From positions 1 to 22,813 of the IMG/VR virus record IMGVR_UViG_3300043466_002203: 22,813 bases of DNA, one strand, 5' to 3'. This DNA is from a virus. Below are positions 14,465-19,328 of the stretch, piece after piece (the stretch's first letter is position 1; every line of letters begins with the position of its first letter). The notes below the pieces were generated by a model. The model was given only the letters and a program-made list of their open reading frames with translations. It searched no databases and was not told where the DNA came from. A program made the translations under genes and the position numbers.

Positions 14465-14647
14465 TCAGCCCTGCGCCGATTTACGACCCGGGCCCTGGCG
14501 TTCCATATCCCGAATCACCAGCCCACGGATGTACGCGGCCCGGCTGCAGCCGAGGTAGGAGGCCTGCGCGTCGAGGTGCTCGACGAGTTCGGTTTTCAGT
14601 TCAAGGGTGATCGCAGTCCGTCCTTCGCGTGATGGCCAGCCGGGCAT
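14465..14647 (-). CDS. Small ribbon-helix-helix DNA-binding protein
   Basis: I choose the ATG at 14647, giving 60 aa that begin MPGWPSREGRTAITLELKT; a longer upstream reading adds low-complexity residues across the promoter region. The core AITLELKTELVEHLDAQ then ASYLGCSRAAYIRGLVIRDM is one beta strand and two helices, the Arc/CopG/MetJ fold that binds DNA as a dimer. It is encoded four bases upstream of the primase/VapE gene, so it may control that unit or act at an origin. A C-rich stretch, and no Shine-Dalgarno sequence, precedes the start. A possible -10 (TATGCT, 14672-14677 on the minus strand) lies about 25 bases upstream. Confidence 0.65.
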   Translation of the reverse strand: MPGWPSREGRTAITLELKTELVEHLDAQASYLGCSRAAYIRGLVIRDMERQGPGRKSAQG

Positions 14648-14683
14648 GGAGGGGAGGGGGTGTGGATCTACAGCATAAGGGGT

Positions 14684-14710
14684 GCGGATCCGGAACAGAA
14701 GGGGTATGAT
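14684..14710 (+). promoter_or_regulatory. Promoter/operator box, copy A
   Basis: GCGGATCCGGAAC is followed eight bases later by TATGAT (14705-14710). The same layout, without gaps, occurs at 14780 and 20806. TATGAT is a good -10 hexamer; the GGAAC segment sits in the spacer where a repressor or activator could act. Confidence 0.6.
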
Positions 14711-14779
14711 CCAGAAGCCACCACCAACGCCCCGCTCCATGACGATGCCAGCCACTGCCCGGACCAGGCGGTGGGGGTT

Positions 14780-14886: not shown

Positions 14887-15372
14887 TTGGCTCCATCATG
14901 CTTGAACACACCTAGCGGCTACTACCTGTCTCGCCAGTGGCGGCAGCGCAGACAGCAACGCCTTGAGATCGACAGCCACCAGTGCCAAGGGTGCGGCATC
15001 ACAGCTGCGCAACTGGAAGAACTGGGCTGGCCTTCGCTTCAGGTTCACCACAAGAACGCTGGCCCACCGAACTACACGTACCCGTCATTCGGTAATGAGC
15101 AGATGTCAGATCTTCTGACGCTGTGCTCTGAATGCCATGACGGCATTACTAATTCAGTTCGACGCCAGCGCTTCAAATTGGACCCTAAAAAGCAAGTCGA
15201 TCCGGTTCATATTGCCCCGCCTTCTCTTTCTGCATCGATTCCCACACGTAGACAACATGTCGAACCTTCCTTCTGTTCAGATCCGACTTCAGGGCGTCAG
15301 CCCACTGCTGTGCCACAACGGTCAAACAGCCGATCCGCGAAATACCTACGCGAAGGCAATGAAAGCCGTTAG
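14887..15372 (+). CDS. HNH endonuclease
   Basis: About 161 aa with a clear HNH zinc-nuclease core: CQGC (C33, C36), LQVHHKN (H54-H55), NEQMSDLLTLC (C80) and SECHDG (C83, H84). The start is uncertain: no ATG or GTG is in frame, so TTG at 14887 (just after AAAGG) or TTG at 14902 must serve. HNH proteins of this small type often work in phage DNA packaging or cutting. Here the gene is in the early-type region, far from the terminase. About 75 residues follow the core; the last 38 codons overlap the next gene in another frame, which may mean the C-terminus arose by loss of an earlier stop. Confidence 0.75.
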   Translation: MAPSCLNTPSGYYLSRQWRQRRQQRLEIDSHQCQGCGITAAQLEELGWPSLQVHHKNAGPPNYTYPSFGNEQMSDLLTLCSECHDGITNSVRRQRFKLDPKKQVDPVHIAPPSLSASIPTRRQHVEPSFCSDPTSGRQPTAVPQRSNSRSAKYLREGNESR

Positions 15373-15847
15373 CGGCAAGCGGAAGAAGACCGACGCTGAT
15401 TACGACGAAATGGCCCGCCTTGAATGGTTGGCCGGGCTGTATCGCATCGACGGCGACCTGGTGATTCCTGATTACGTGATCGAAAGCGCGATGATCAAGG
15501 GCGCCATGAAGTCCAAGCGTGGGCCCCAAGCCAAGTGCGGGCTGTTCTTCACTGATCACGCTTCGCTTGAGTTCGACGGCAAGCCTGCCACGATCACTGA
15601 TGACACCCTGTCGGAGATGTTCGCCAGTGGCCAGTTCACTCACACGATCGGCGTGAAGGTGGGCATGGCCAAGGTCATGCGGACGCGGCCGATGTTCCGC
15701 AACTGGAGCATCACGGTGCTGGCTCAGTACGACCCTGACGTGCTGAATATGCGCGAGGTCGAAGAGATCGCTGTTGACGCCGGCAAGCTGGTGGGCATTG
15801 GCGACTGGCGGCCCAAGCACGGCCGATTCAACGCCGAGGTGGCTTGA
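15257..15847 (+). CDS. Conserved phage protein of unknown function
   Basis: I choose the ATG at 15257 (MSNLPSVQIRLQGVSPLLCHNG), giving 196 aa. The pattern GVSPLLCHNGQTADPRNTYAK, then SGKRKKTDADYDEMARLEWLAGLY, GPQAKCGLFF, MRTRPMFRNWSITV, QYDPDVLNMREVEEI and GIGDWRPKHGRF recurs, to my memory, in uncharacterised proteins of temperate phages. The start is a beta strand and the end has a glycine-rich turn, faintly like the RAMP fold, but this is not established. It overlaps the HNH gene by 116 bases. No Shine-Dalgarno sequence is visible. Its stop shares bases with the ATG of the array-spanning frame (TGATG). Confidence 0.8.
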   Translation: MSNLPSVQIRLQGVSPLLCHNGQTADPRNTYAKAMKAVSGKRKKTDADYDEMARLEWLAGLYRIDGDLVIPDYVIESAMIKGAMKSKRGPQAKCGLFFTDHASLEFDGKPATITDDTLSEMFASGQFTHTIGVKVGMAKVMRTRPMFRNWSITVLAQYDPDVLNMREVEEIAVDAGKLVGIGDWRPKHGRFNAEVA

Positions 15848-16341
15848 TGTACTGGGCATCCGGCAACGGTGTAAGTCCCAGCCAGGTCGGGCCAAGCTCG
15901 GCTCGGCACGGCGGGGCCCGGTGTTGCCAGGCACGGCAGGGCGGGGCCAGGCGGGGTATGGGTCACAGACGGTGGCACGGAGGGCTTCGGCCTTCCCTGC
16001 CACCCTCACAAGGGTGGATGCGGCACGGCGCGGCGCGGTATGGCGCGTTTTGGCGAGGCTTGGCTTGCTGGGGCCTGGCGTGGCTGGGCAAGGGCTGCAG
16101 ACAGCAGCACGGAGCCTCTTCGGAGGTTCCCTGCTGCTCTCTTTGGAGGGCAGACAAGGCGCGGCCTGGACCGGCTTGGCCTGGCATGGCGCTGCGAGGC
16201 GGGGCGCGGCCTGGACCGGCTTGGCCTGGCATGGCGCTGCGAGGCGGGGCGCGGCAAGGCAAGGCGCGGCAAGGGCTGACGATCTCAGCGCGGAGGGCTT
16301 CGGCTCTCCCCAGTGAGTTCACCAAACACTTCATGGCATGA
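15847..16341 (+). CDS. Open frame spanning the pentamer array (doubtful gene, 164 aa)
   Basis: The frame starts at an ATG overlapping the previous stop (TGATG, 15845-15849) and ends in TGA overlapping the next start (ATGA, 16338-16341). These junctions are the same kinds seen between real genes elsewhere in this window, and the next gene has no ribosome site of its own. Against this, the product is a low-complexity reading of the array (GPAWPGMALRGGARP appears twice), and the array lacks stops in several frames on both strands, so openness means little. Either a genuine gene was invaded in frame by the repeats, or the overlaps are chance. Confidence 0.3.
   Translation: MYWASGNGVSPSQVGPSSARHGGARCCQARQGGARRGMGHRRWHGGLRPSLPPSQGWMRHGAARYGAFWRGLACWGLAWLGKGCRQQHGASSEVPCCSLWRADKARPGPAWPGMALRGGARPGPAWPGMALRGGARQGKARQGLTISARRASALPSEFTKHFMA
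15880..15964 (+). repeat. GGCNN pentamer array, module 1
   Basis: Seventeen consecutive pentamers in strict register; 14 of the 16 from 15885 start with GG, most as GGCNN. It ends GGTAT, GGGTC. Six bases (ACAGAC) separate it from the first TTCG hairpin. Confidence 0.85.
15971..16004 (+). repeat. TTCG-tetraloop hairpin, module 1
   Basis: Outer stem GGTGGCA/TGCCACC, a C-C mismatch, inner stem GGAGGGC/GCCTTCC with one G-T pair, and a TTCG loop. The right arm's CCACC can instead pair with AGGGTGG at 16011-16017 (CCACCCT, loop CACA), so two exclusive folds are possible. No T-run follows, so it is not an ordinary terminator. Confidence 0.85.
16022..16096 (+). repeat. GGCNN pentamer array, module 2
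   Basis: Fifteen pentamers in register, 12 of them GGCNN or GGTNN, ending GGCAA, GGGCT. The spacer to the next hairpin is GCAGAC, six bases. Confidence 0.85.
16103..16138 (+). repeat. TTCG-tetraloop hairpin, module 2
   Basis: Outer stem AGCAGCA/TGCTGCT, C-C mismatch, inner stem GGAGCCTC/GAGGTTCC with one G-T pair, TTCG loop. Outer stem sequence differs completely from module 1 while pairing is kept, which is compensatory-type evidence that structure matters. Confidence 0.85.
16158..16277 (+). repeat. GGCNN pentamer array, module 3, with a 45-base tandem duplication
   Basis: Twenty-four pentamers in register. Positions 16160-16204 and 16205-16249 are identical 45-base units (nine pentamers each), a recent duplication. 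The array ends GGCAA, GGGCT like module 2, then six bases (GACGAT) to the hairpin. Confidence 0.88.
16284..16317 (+). repeat. TTCG-tetraloop hairpin, module 3
   Basis: Inner stem GGAGGGC/GCTCTCC with a G-T pair and TTCG loop, flanked by a C-C mismatch and a weaker outer stem (CTCA/TGAG with internal mismatches). It ends about 20 bases before the ribbon-helix-helix start. Confidence 0.75.
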
Positions 16342-16490
16342 CCAACAAAAAAGACACTGATCGCCGATTGCTTCAGGTTTCGTTGAAGCCTGATTTTTAT
16401 GAGCGGGTTCGCCAGCATTGCGCCCGCATCGACCTGCCCATGGCTATCTGGGTGCGGCAGCTGATTAAGCGCGAGGTTCCCGATGATTGA
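16338..16490 (+). CDS. Small ribbon-helix-helix protein next to the pentamer array
   Basis: A 50-codon frame from an ATG at 16338 to TGA at 16488-16490. The sequence DRRLLQVSLKPDFYERVRQ followed by HCARIDLPMAIWVRQLIKREV gives one beta strand and two helices, the CopG/Arc-type DNA-binding fold. No Shine-Dalgarno sequence precedes the start, which overlaps the end of the array-spanning frame by four bases. The gene overlaps the helicase start by eight bases (ATGATTGA), so it is co-translated with it. Proteins of this fold can bind runs of short direct repeats, and a pentamer array ends 60 bases upstream; binding to it is my hypothesis. Confidence 0.75.
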   Translation: MTNKKDTDRRLLQVSLKPDFYERVRQHCARIDLPMAIWVRQLIKREVPDD

Positions 16491-17934
16491 ACTCCGCCCC
16501 TACCAAGAATTATTCACCGCCAACATCTCCACAGCACTAGCCATCCATCGGCGAGTGGTGGGCACCATGGCGACAGGTTCAGGCAAGGGCACGGTTGCCG
16601 CGTTCATGGCTGAGCGTGCTGCATCCCGTGGTCACCGGGTGCTGGTGCTGGCTCACCGCAAAGAATTGATTGAGGACCTGTCTGGCCGCATCGGTGGCCA
16701 CGGTGTGCGGCATGGGCTGATCGCTGCTGGCCGCAGCATGGACCTGAGCCAGGCTGTGCAGGTGGGCAGCGTGGATACGGTCGCGCGGCGGCTGCGTCTG
16801 ATCCCTGCGCCGACGCTGATCATCCAGGATGAAGCGCACCACCTGATCGAGGGCAACAAATGGGGCCGGGTGATTGATGCCTGGCCTGATGCGTACCTGG
16901 TGGGGCTGACGGCCACACCGCAGCGGCTGTCCGGTGAAGGGTTGGGTGAAGGTCACGGCGGGTATTTCCGCCAGCTGATCCAGGGGCCTACAGCGCAGTG
17001 GTTGACGGATGAGGGGTATCTGAGCCGCGCGCGAGTGCTGGCCCCGCCAGGGTTCGACCTGTCCGGGATCCGCAGGTTCGACACCGCCACGGGCAAGGCG
17101 CGAGCGTCTGAGGTGTTGCGCTCAGGGCAGGCAATGGGCGATCCGGTGGGCCACTACCGGCGAGAGATTGCACCGATCCACAACGGCACAGTGCTGGGGT
17201 TCTGCGTGAGCGTGCCGAACGCTGAGGGATACGCCCAGCTGTACCGCGATGCGGGGATTCCTGCGGCGTGCCTGCATGGGGATACGGAACCAGCACTGCG
17301 GCGCCAGCTGATTGCGGATCTAGGTAGCGGTGTTCTGAAGGCGCTGTTCAGCTGCGAGATCATCAGCGAAGGCACGGACATTCCGAGCGTCAGCGGTGTG
17401 CAGCTGCTGCGGCCAACGGACAGCCTGACGCTGTACCTGCAGCAGGTTGGGCGTGGGTTGCGGCCCATCTACGCGCCAGGCCGTGACCTGTCCACCAGGG
17501 AAGGCCGGCTGCAGGCGATTGCGGACGGAGGGAAGCCCTGGACTGTGGTGCTGGATCACGTCGGCAACAGCCACCGCCACGGGCTGCCGACGGATGACCG
17601 GGAGTGGACGCTGGAGGGCAAGGTAGGCCGCCAGGGTGGCCAGGCCGCCCCATCAGTCCGCGTCTGCCCCCGGTGTTTCTCCGCGATGCCGAGCGGCCGC
17701 CCGGTCTGCGCGGACTGCGGCCATGAGTTCGTCCCCGAACGCCGGGAGCTCGCCACGGTGGACGGTGAGCTGGTGGAGGTGCAGCGCCGCGAAGCCCGCC
17801 GCGAGCAGGCCACCGCCCAGACCCTCGAAGACCTGATCCAGATCGGCACGCGTCGGGGAATGAAGAACCCGAGAGGCTGGGCCCGGCATGTGCTGGCGGC
17901 GCGTGGTGCGAAGCGCGGGAAGGCGGTCGCGTGA
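16483..17934 (+). CDS. SF2 DEAH-box helicase with C-terminal zinc finger
   Basis: 483 aa from an ATG at 16483. Superfamily 2 motifs are all present: RPYQ (5-8), ATGSGKGT (motif I, 30-37), DEAH (116-119), TATPQR (143-148), FSCEIISEGTDIPSV (about 289-303) and QQVGRGLRP (motif VI, 320-328). A four-cysteine zinc site follows (C395, C398, C409, C412). The layout resembles phage and bacterial RadD/UvsW-like helicases that act on branched DNA during replication or recombination. Its start overlaps the ribbon-helix-helix gene, and its TGA overlaps the GTG start of the next gene. Substrate choice cannot be read from sequence. Confidence 0.92.
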   Translation: MIELRPYQELFTANISTALAIHRRVVGTMATGSGKGTVAAFMAERAASRGHRVLVLAHRKELIEDLSGRIGGHGVRHGLIAAGRSMDLSQAVQVGSVDTVARRLRLIPAPTLIIQDEAHHLIEGNKWGRVIDAWPDAYLVGLTATPQRLSGEGLGEGHGGYFRQLIQGPTAQWLTDEGYLSRARVLAPPGFDLSGIRRFDTATGKARASEVLRSGQAMGDPVGHYRREIAPIHNGTVLGFCVSVPNAEGYAQLYRDAGIPAACLHGDTEPALRRQLIADLGSGVLKALFSCEIISEGTDIPSVSGVQLLRPTDSLTLYLQQVGRGLRPIYAPGRDLSTREGRLQAIADGGKPWTVVLDHVGNSHRHGLPTDDREWTLEGKVGRQGGQAAPSVRVCPRCFSAMPSGRPVCADCGHEFVPERRELATVDGELVEVQRREARREQATAQTLEDLIQIGTRRGMKNPRGWARHVLAARGAKRGKAVA

Positions 17935-18440: not shown

Positions 18441-19328
18441 CTAAGCGGGCACAGGGATCGAGAGCTGTGCCGACAATGCATGTGGCGAATGTCGGCAAAT
18501 TTTCTTCCATTTTGTTTGGCTAAAAAACGGCTGAGATTTGTACCATTCTTCGACCAGCTTTGCTCCCTTGCTGGCATTACATGTAAAGCATGCAGGAATT
18601 AGGTTTGCGGCTTCGTCAAGGCCTCCCAGCTTGATTGGAAGCACATGGTCAATGACTATGCGATTGCTTGATCCACAGTACGCACATCTATTCTCAAACA
18701 ATTTACGTCTATGCGCCGCATCTTGTCGCTTGGCGGCGACAATGGCGCGCCTCATCGCACACCTTCGCTTTGCCCCGTAACACCTGCCTCTTTCTCTTGC
18801 CATTTCTAGGTTTAGCTTCCTATATTCACGCAACCTAGATCGAGCATAATCTAGGTTTTTGGTTCTCCATTCCTTGTGCCTTTGGGCCATGAGTTCTTTG
18901 TTGCGCTCATAATAAGCTTTAGCTATAAGCCTGACTCTTTCAGGATTATTCGCGCGGTAAGCCCTATGTCTTTCTCGTATTAAGTCACCGTTGGCAAGCT
19001 GGTAGGCTTTATTTCGTTCACGGCAATATTGCGAGTTTCTTGCTTGCCAGTTACGATAGCTTTCCCTTGCCTTATCAAGGTTATTTGCCCGCCACCGCCT
19101 ATTAATTTGCCTGGCATGCTCAGGATTTTTGGCCCTTTTTTCTCTGGCTTTAGATTTAAGTTTCTCGGCTACGGCTGCAATTAGCCAGTAACGAATGGTG
19201 ACAGGAGGCCTACTAAGGCTGCGGCCAATTTGAGCAATGGAGACTCCGCACGCAGCCATGACCTCTGCGTGGATTCGATCGCGTCGGAGCTTTTGAGGGT
19301 CGCGACGGCCCTTAGATTGAGATTGCAT
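18441..19328 (-). CDS. HNH endonuclease with helical repeats, homing-type
   Basis: 295 aa from an ATG at 19328. An N-terminal helix-turn-helix (GVSIAQIGRSLSRPPVTIRYWL, about 28-49) is followed by about eight units of 14-17 residues (66-190) of the type NPERVRLIAKAYYER and NLDYARSRLREYRKL, probably basic helices that track DNA. The HNH core is CAYC (C215, C218), VIDHVLPIKLGG (D227-H228), NLIPACFTCNASK (N242, C247, C250). The gene is visibly richer in A+T than its neighbours, points against them, and has its own terminator, all typical of a free-standing homing endonuclease acquired recently. Its target cannot be read here. Confidence 0.88.
   Translation of the reverse strand: MQSQSKGRRDPQKLRRDRIHAEVMAACGVSIAQIGRSLSRPPVTIRYWLIAAVAEKLKSKAREKRAKNPEHARQINRRWRANNLDKARESYRNWQARNSQYCRERNKAYQLANGDLIRERHRAYRANNPERVRLIAKAYYERNKELMAQRHKEWRTKNLDYARSRLREYRKLNLEMARERGRCYGAKRRCAMRRAIVAAKRQDAAHRRKLFENRCAYCGSSNRIVIDHVLPIKLGGLDEAANLIPACFTCNASKGAKLVEEWYKSQPFFSQTKWKKICRHSPHALSAQLSIPVPA

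Follow-up and report, generated by a model that had tools for sequence, protein, structure and literature searches.

The VIPR systems presented in the main text of a 2026 preprint (PMC13142463) pair phage RAMP proteins (Vipr) with guide RNAs (vrRNAs) composed of 9–16 alternating GGY/NN units and a folded 3′ tail. Double-stranded DNA is recognised through the NN letters, successive dinucleotides leaving out one base between them; in coding targets this skipped base is reported at codon position 3. The preprint distinguishes seven VIPR types and names accessory genes vap1–6, and nuclease accessory genes have already been described for some of the types. Here we analyse a 22.8-kb phage contig in IMG/VR (IMGVR_UViG_3300043466_002203; 22,813 nucleotides, referred to below as the window), in which three guide-RNA genes of a VIPR locus lie at 15880-16317, directly downstream of a vipr gene; coordinates refer to the + strand unless otherwise stated. 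At the sequence level this identification is firm, as the locus combines a RAMP-family Vipr, GGY/NN repeats, a structured 3′ tail and, judging by sequence statistics, the code with a one-nucleotide skip. An earlier note on this DNA, made from its letters alone, knew of no named element with this design; the design is that of the VIPR vrRNAs. Among the possibilities which that note listed, a structured RNA agrees with vrRNAs carrying a covarying tail, and no support was found for the other two, a replication signal and a DNA array that simply binds protein.

The locus resembles the type II VIPR examples (SUSP1 and the P. fulva prophage) in its RAMP-fold Vipr homologue, its GGY/NN guides and its structured 3′ tail, and VIPR as presented in the preprint's main text in having phage-encoded, tandem vrRNAs and a one-nucleotide skip that places the skipped base of coding targets at codon position 3 (PMC13142463). 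It differs from SUSP1 VIPR in that its arrays are GGC-rich, whereas those of SUSP1 are GGT, in its tail, which is of another kind and contains three covarying helices, and in the HNH gene found directly upstream, SUSP1 having vap1. Unlike what the main text of the preprint describes (PMC13142463), the guides of the window's clade appear to aim at sister-phage homologues of the genes flanking the cassette itself. With Class 1 CRISPR–Cas effectors (Csm3/Cas7) the system shares the fold of the backbone subunit and RNA guidance, but the window holds no CRISPR repeats, spacers or recognised other cas genes, and its guide is written in gapped dinucleotides. Free-standing HNH homing endonucleases and the marker exclusion associated with them (PMC10448857, PMC11620839) provide a third comparison: here too an HNH gene lies beside essential phage genes, and the target is found in the empty allele of relatives with no self target. 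The address, however, would apparently reside in RNA guides read by Vipr and not in the DNA-binding domain of the nuclease, cleavage and homing being presumed here.

The arrays consist of three runs of GGY-NN pentamers in register, each ending in six bases and a TTCG hairpin. The register, the copy numbers (17, 15 and 24), the six-base spacers and the hairpins are as the earlier note had described them. Its wording ‘mostly GGCNN’ captured the pattern, but GGYNN fits better; likewise, the spacer and the hairpin were correctly placed but are not separate elements. Both the six bases and the final pentamer's GGG are part of the RNA tail, which has three hairpins. Most of the six-base stretch falls in the loop of hairpin one (GCTGC-AGACA-GCAGC in module 2), and the TTCG hairpin is the middle one. 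The guide of vrRNA 1 (15880-15959) comprises 16 pentamers with the NN code CA CG CA TC TC AC GG CC GT CA AC AG GG CA GG AT, and that of vrRNA 2 (16022-16091) comprises 14, reading AC GC GC AT GC TT GA TT TT GG CT GT TG AA; both lengths fall within the VIPR range. The guide of vrRNA 3 (16158-16272) has 23 pentamers. Module 3 owes its total of 24 to a perfect, in-register duplication of nine pentamers (45 bp; 16158-16202 repeated at 16203-16247), and without the duplicated copy it is of the same length as module 2. The GGY-in-register score is 15 in the array region versus 3 across the remaining window, from which the pattern is absent, so that it is not a common feature of random GC-rich sequence there. 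When the array stretch was simulated 5000 times with a first-order Markov model, the score reached 5 at most. Searches for tRNAs and promoters found none, and in Rfam no family reached the gathering threshold, a weaker match to one miRNA family being judged a chance event. Identical repeats with unique spacers of the CRISPR type were not found in the window, which therefore does not qualify as a CRISPR–Cas locus. Open reading frames (ORFs) spanning the arrays were regarded as mechanical.

The hairpins, for which the earlier note had proposed covariance modelling, proved to belong to a covarying three-helix tail. The tails of vrRNA 1 (15960-16021), vrRNA 2 (16092-16157) and vrRNA 3 (16273-16330) scored 80.9, 77.1 and 55.2 bits, respectively, with a covariance model whose training set includes all three. 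The first is a three-helix RNA with a central TTCG hairpin and evidence of covariation, the second has a predicted fold with three hairpins, and in the predicted fold of the third the last helix is weak. In an alignment of 74 tails from Vipr loci, standard pairs occupy 98.2% of the cells of the three-helix structure, the TTCG hairpin forms the middle helix, and both-sided changes occur at 14 of the 17 pairs; the paired fraction falls to 41–54% when the helices are slid. An alternative long hairpin, incompatible with helices one and three, is 97.6% paired, with double changes at 9 of 12 pairs. Thus, in the tails at 15960-16330 and their relatives, mutually exclusive helix sets (a:b and c:d versus b:c) both covary, which suggests that the tail may switch between two conformations; it could also be a processing signal. 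The covariance model found no match in SUSP1 or in Mycobacterium phage Quico, and the tail family therefore appears to belong to the window's clade.

The vipr gene (15257-15847) codes for a predicted guide-RNA-binding protein of the RAMP family, 196 aa in length. It is 32% identical to the 196-residue SUSP1 protein ALH47069 (2e-34) and matches phrog_4652 at 5.9e-48; this PHROG family of unknown function corresponds to Vipr-like proteins. In SUSP1, ALH47069 sits among three GGT arrays, and its size together with these flanking GGY arrays leads us to infer that it is the SUSP1 Vipr. The top structural matches of the AlphaFold model of the window's Vipr (pLDDT 96.5) are all subunits of the Csm3/Cas7/Cmr type (Foldseek E ~1e-5; VIA Z ~10.6), and the protein's C-terminal GIGDWRPKHGRF resembles, by eye, the glycine-rich loop of RAMP proteins.

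The association between arrays and Vipr extends well beyond the window. A scan of IMG/VR with a seven-unit GGCNN pattern, which is blind to Vipr, returned at least 120 loci, and a profile of the Vipr family built from the window's protein found the gene in 82 of the 120 listed GGCNN loci versus 0 of 65 control loci. Arrays lie beside vipr in 74 of 80 close Vipr relatives (71–93% identity); absence of the array from all close relatives, by which the earlier note would have judged its element refuted, was thus not what was found. A BLAST search of the array region against phages yielded only 71% matches, in mycobacteriophages, where the arrays also adjoin a Vipr homologue. One of these deserves mention in its own right: in Quico (L002, 2430-2680, between genes 56 and 57) a long GGCNN array lies by the Vipr homologue QUICO_57 in a region annotated as hypothetical, and this cultured phage could serve as a laboratory model of GGC-type VIPR. 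In a bacterial genome collection the sole Vipr relative (48% identity) was detected in an uncultured Granulosicoccaceae metagenome-assembled genome (L348), where an HNH-like gene is also present upstream.

The NN letters, whose free variation the earlier note had pointed out, carry the information. A search of 2.2 Mb of DNA gave targets at E<1e-3 for 8 of 117 arrays when one base is skipped between dinucleotides, and for none under skip 0, skip 2, or shuffled or reversed order; skip 3 recovers the arrays themselves. When whole contigs were included (1.53 Mb), matches of at least 34 bits were obtained for 19 of 131 arrays under skip 1, versus 0 with shuffled codes, 1 under skip 0 and 0 under skip 2. 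Eight of nine targets inspected overlap ORFs of at least 60 codons, and in all eight the skipped base is codon position 3 of the longest ORF. By these sequence statistics, the one-nucleotide-skip rule holds independently in the window's clade.

Guide 1 has a clear target. Under skip 1, 27 of its first 28 code positions (the first 14 NN) match in the IMG/VR contigs L343, L345 and L347, and the target is present in 8 of 50 related records, a control pattern giving 0; none was found in bacterial genomes. This site corresponds, in those sister phages that were examined, to the helicase operon leader. The left flank and leader that the window shares with VIPR-less sister phages (14494-14775) end just before the position of this target in the sisters. 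In a blastn comparison with one such sister, L126 (72.8% identity), the alignment stops at 14775 (L126 3855) and resumes at 16492 (L126 4007), and the target, L126 3877-3921, falls within the segment that the cassette replaces. No self target for guide 1 exists in the window, the best self score being 19 bits. The site thus occurs in the empty allele but not in the occupied one, as expected of a homing element.

The cassette also includes an HNH endonuclease gene (14887-15372; ORF of 161 aa; best match to PHROG HNH endonuclease families 2.7e-10), which is probably, from its sequence and neighbourhood, an accessory gene of the window's VIPR clade. It lies directly upstream of vipr and overlaps its start in all 80 relatives, and the HNH residues, the catalytic motif that a homing element should have, are conserved across 81 sequences. 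Cassettes whose Vipr proteins are 91–93% identical occupy a terminase/portal site in many phages and the leader/helicase site in the window and a few others; the cassette therefore appears, from sequence comparison, to be mobile.

The targets of other arrays follow the position of the cassette that encodes them. We considered 13 arrays whose target sits on a contig longer than 9 kb, the contigs having been picked by homology to Vipr or helicase. For 12 of the 13, the target lies in, or at most 150 bp from, a homologue of the genes that border the cassette of the source itself, and these homologues cover only 4–29% of the target contigs; the first array of G038 is a weak case. When flanks were exchanged among sources the mean was 2.9 and 12 was never reached in 20,000 permutations, a result whose p-value is optimistic because the sources include relatives of one another (L234/L280, L215/L217). 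Cassettes at the helicase site target the helicase region and those at the head site target terL or portal; alignable self sites carry fewer matches than the targets. In addition, other vrRNAs of the family (L248/G043, L234, L235, L257, L232 and more) have targets in sister phages, within the genes for terminase, portal or helicase, and many of these sisters possess a VIPR of their own.

Protein homology, the predicted fold, RNA covariation, the skip-1 code, target positions and the absence of self targets were all obtained in this analysis, and we consider it very probable that they have a common explanation: three VIPR vrRNAs act with Vipr, and the complex attacks an empty sister locus addressed by guide 1. 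The three vrRNAs, with some 14–16 GGY-NN units (23 in the third) followed by the conserved folded 3′ tail, would be expressed and assembled with Vipr into a ribonucleoprotein. Vipr, which is related to Cas7/Csm3 and has the predicted RAMP fold, should bind the GGY units and hold the NN dinucleotides for pairing with double-stranded DNA, one base being skipped between pairs. Guide 1 would address the early helicase operon leader of close relatives without a cassette at this site. The HNH nuclease gene travels with vipr, and its product may be recruited. In co-infecting sister phages the complex would then block or cut the matching empty locus, excluding the rival allele, and would probably aid the copying-in of the cassette and its flanks.

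Taken together, the position rule and the HNH gene suggest that in sister phages the guides of this clade are directed at the empty counterpart of the locus that the cassette itself occupies. An RNA-guided, gene-drive-like homing, in which HNH, Vipr and vrRNAs move together between positions in phage genomes and the guides at each position match the adjoining genes of sisters, excluding or converting the empty allele, is proposed here only tentatively, its chances being close to even but short of it. Besides the relatedness of some flank-test sources, several points weigh against the common explanation given above. Guides 2 and 3 found no target in IMG/VR with exact 8-dinucleotide sub-patterns, nor in the 50 related records with up to three mismatches allowed, their pattern scans giving extensions at chance level only. 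The last two NN of guide 1 mismatch its target, and guide 3, with 23 units, exceeds the 9–16 repeats of the preprint owing to the nine-unit duplication. The activity of HNH and its functional tie to Vipr are predictions, the VIPR assignment draws on sequence, a predicted fold and RNA covariation, and the preprint defining the system (PMC13142463) has had no peer review. Its main text, moreover, shows repression as the sole activity of VIPR.

This last point favours a serious rival, namely a VIPR that only represses, as in SUSP1, with HNH as an unrelated hitch-hiker and target placement as a by-product of gene conservation; we regard it as a real contender, though somewhat below an even chance. 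The leader of an early operon, which guide 1 matches, is a sensible site for repression, and terL, portal and helicase are conserved genes. Such a reading does not readily account for the retention of HNH in every one of the 80 relatives across different genome positions, nor for a choice of target that tracks the position of the source cassette and not one common favourite gene. That the arrays are some other structured RNA or protein-binding array resembling vrRNA (a replication origin or a sponge RNA) is very unlikely and largely refuted by the adjoining Vipr, the skip-1 targets and a tail family common to 74 tails of Vipr loci, despite the lack of any Rfam family at the gathering threshold and the fact that transcription of the array is inferred. 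A functionless, GC-rich minisatellite born by slippage could explain the perfect 45-bp tandem duplication in module 3, but GGY stays constant along the arrays while NN varies, simulated sequences never came near the observed score, and the NN series finds real DNA targets only in its natural order with skip 1. The target statistics refute this reading, whose probability we consider negligible, and the view of the earlier note that the pattern is not simple slippage is upheld.

These results test the skip-1 code of VIPR independently, in a clade that is apparently uncharacterised in the main text of the preprint (PMC13142463), and add a tail RNA family. The position rule points to RNA-guided homing between phages, which would be a VIPR function that this main text does not report (PMC13142463); if true, it would link the proposed ancestors of CRISPR effectors to selfish homing elements and explain how such a cassette could spread. 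The locus would also represent a small RNA-guided system in which an HNH nuclease is the candidate partner.

The genes around the arrays code for HNH, helicase, primase and other phage proteins, and those of the window include a GpA-type terminase, a primase, a helicase and a YqaJ recombinase. A small ORF after the arrays (16338-16490, 50 aa), ribbon-helix-helix-like by eye, is also present in two other helicase-site cassettes (L207, L232) and was not found by tblastn in VIPR-less sister loci. The helicase gene flanking the cassette (16483-17934; Pfam ResIII 9.4e-22, Helicase_C 8e-13), whose leader in the sisters holds the guide-1 target, was dropped as a VIPR accessory, as it is present in few cassette loci and also in VIPR-less sisters. 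A second, unrelated-looking HNH gene on the opposite strand (18441-19328, −; 295 aa), whose product has a long, charged N-terminal portion, is possibly an ordinary homing gene.
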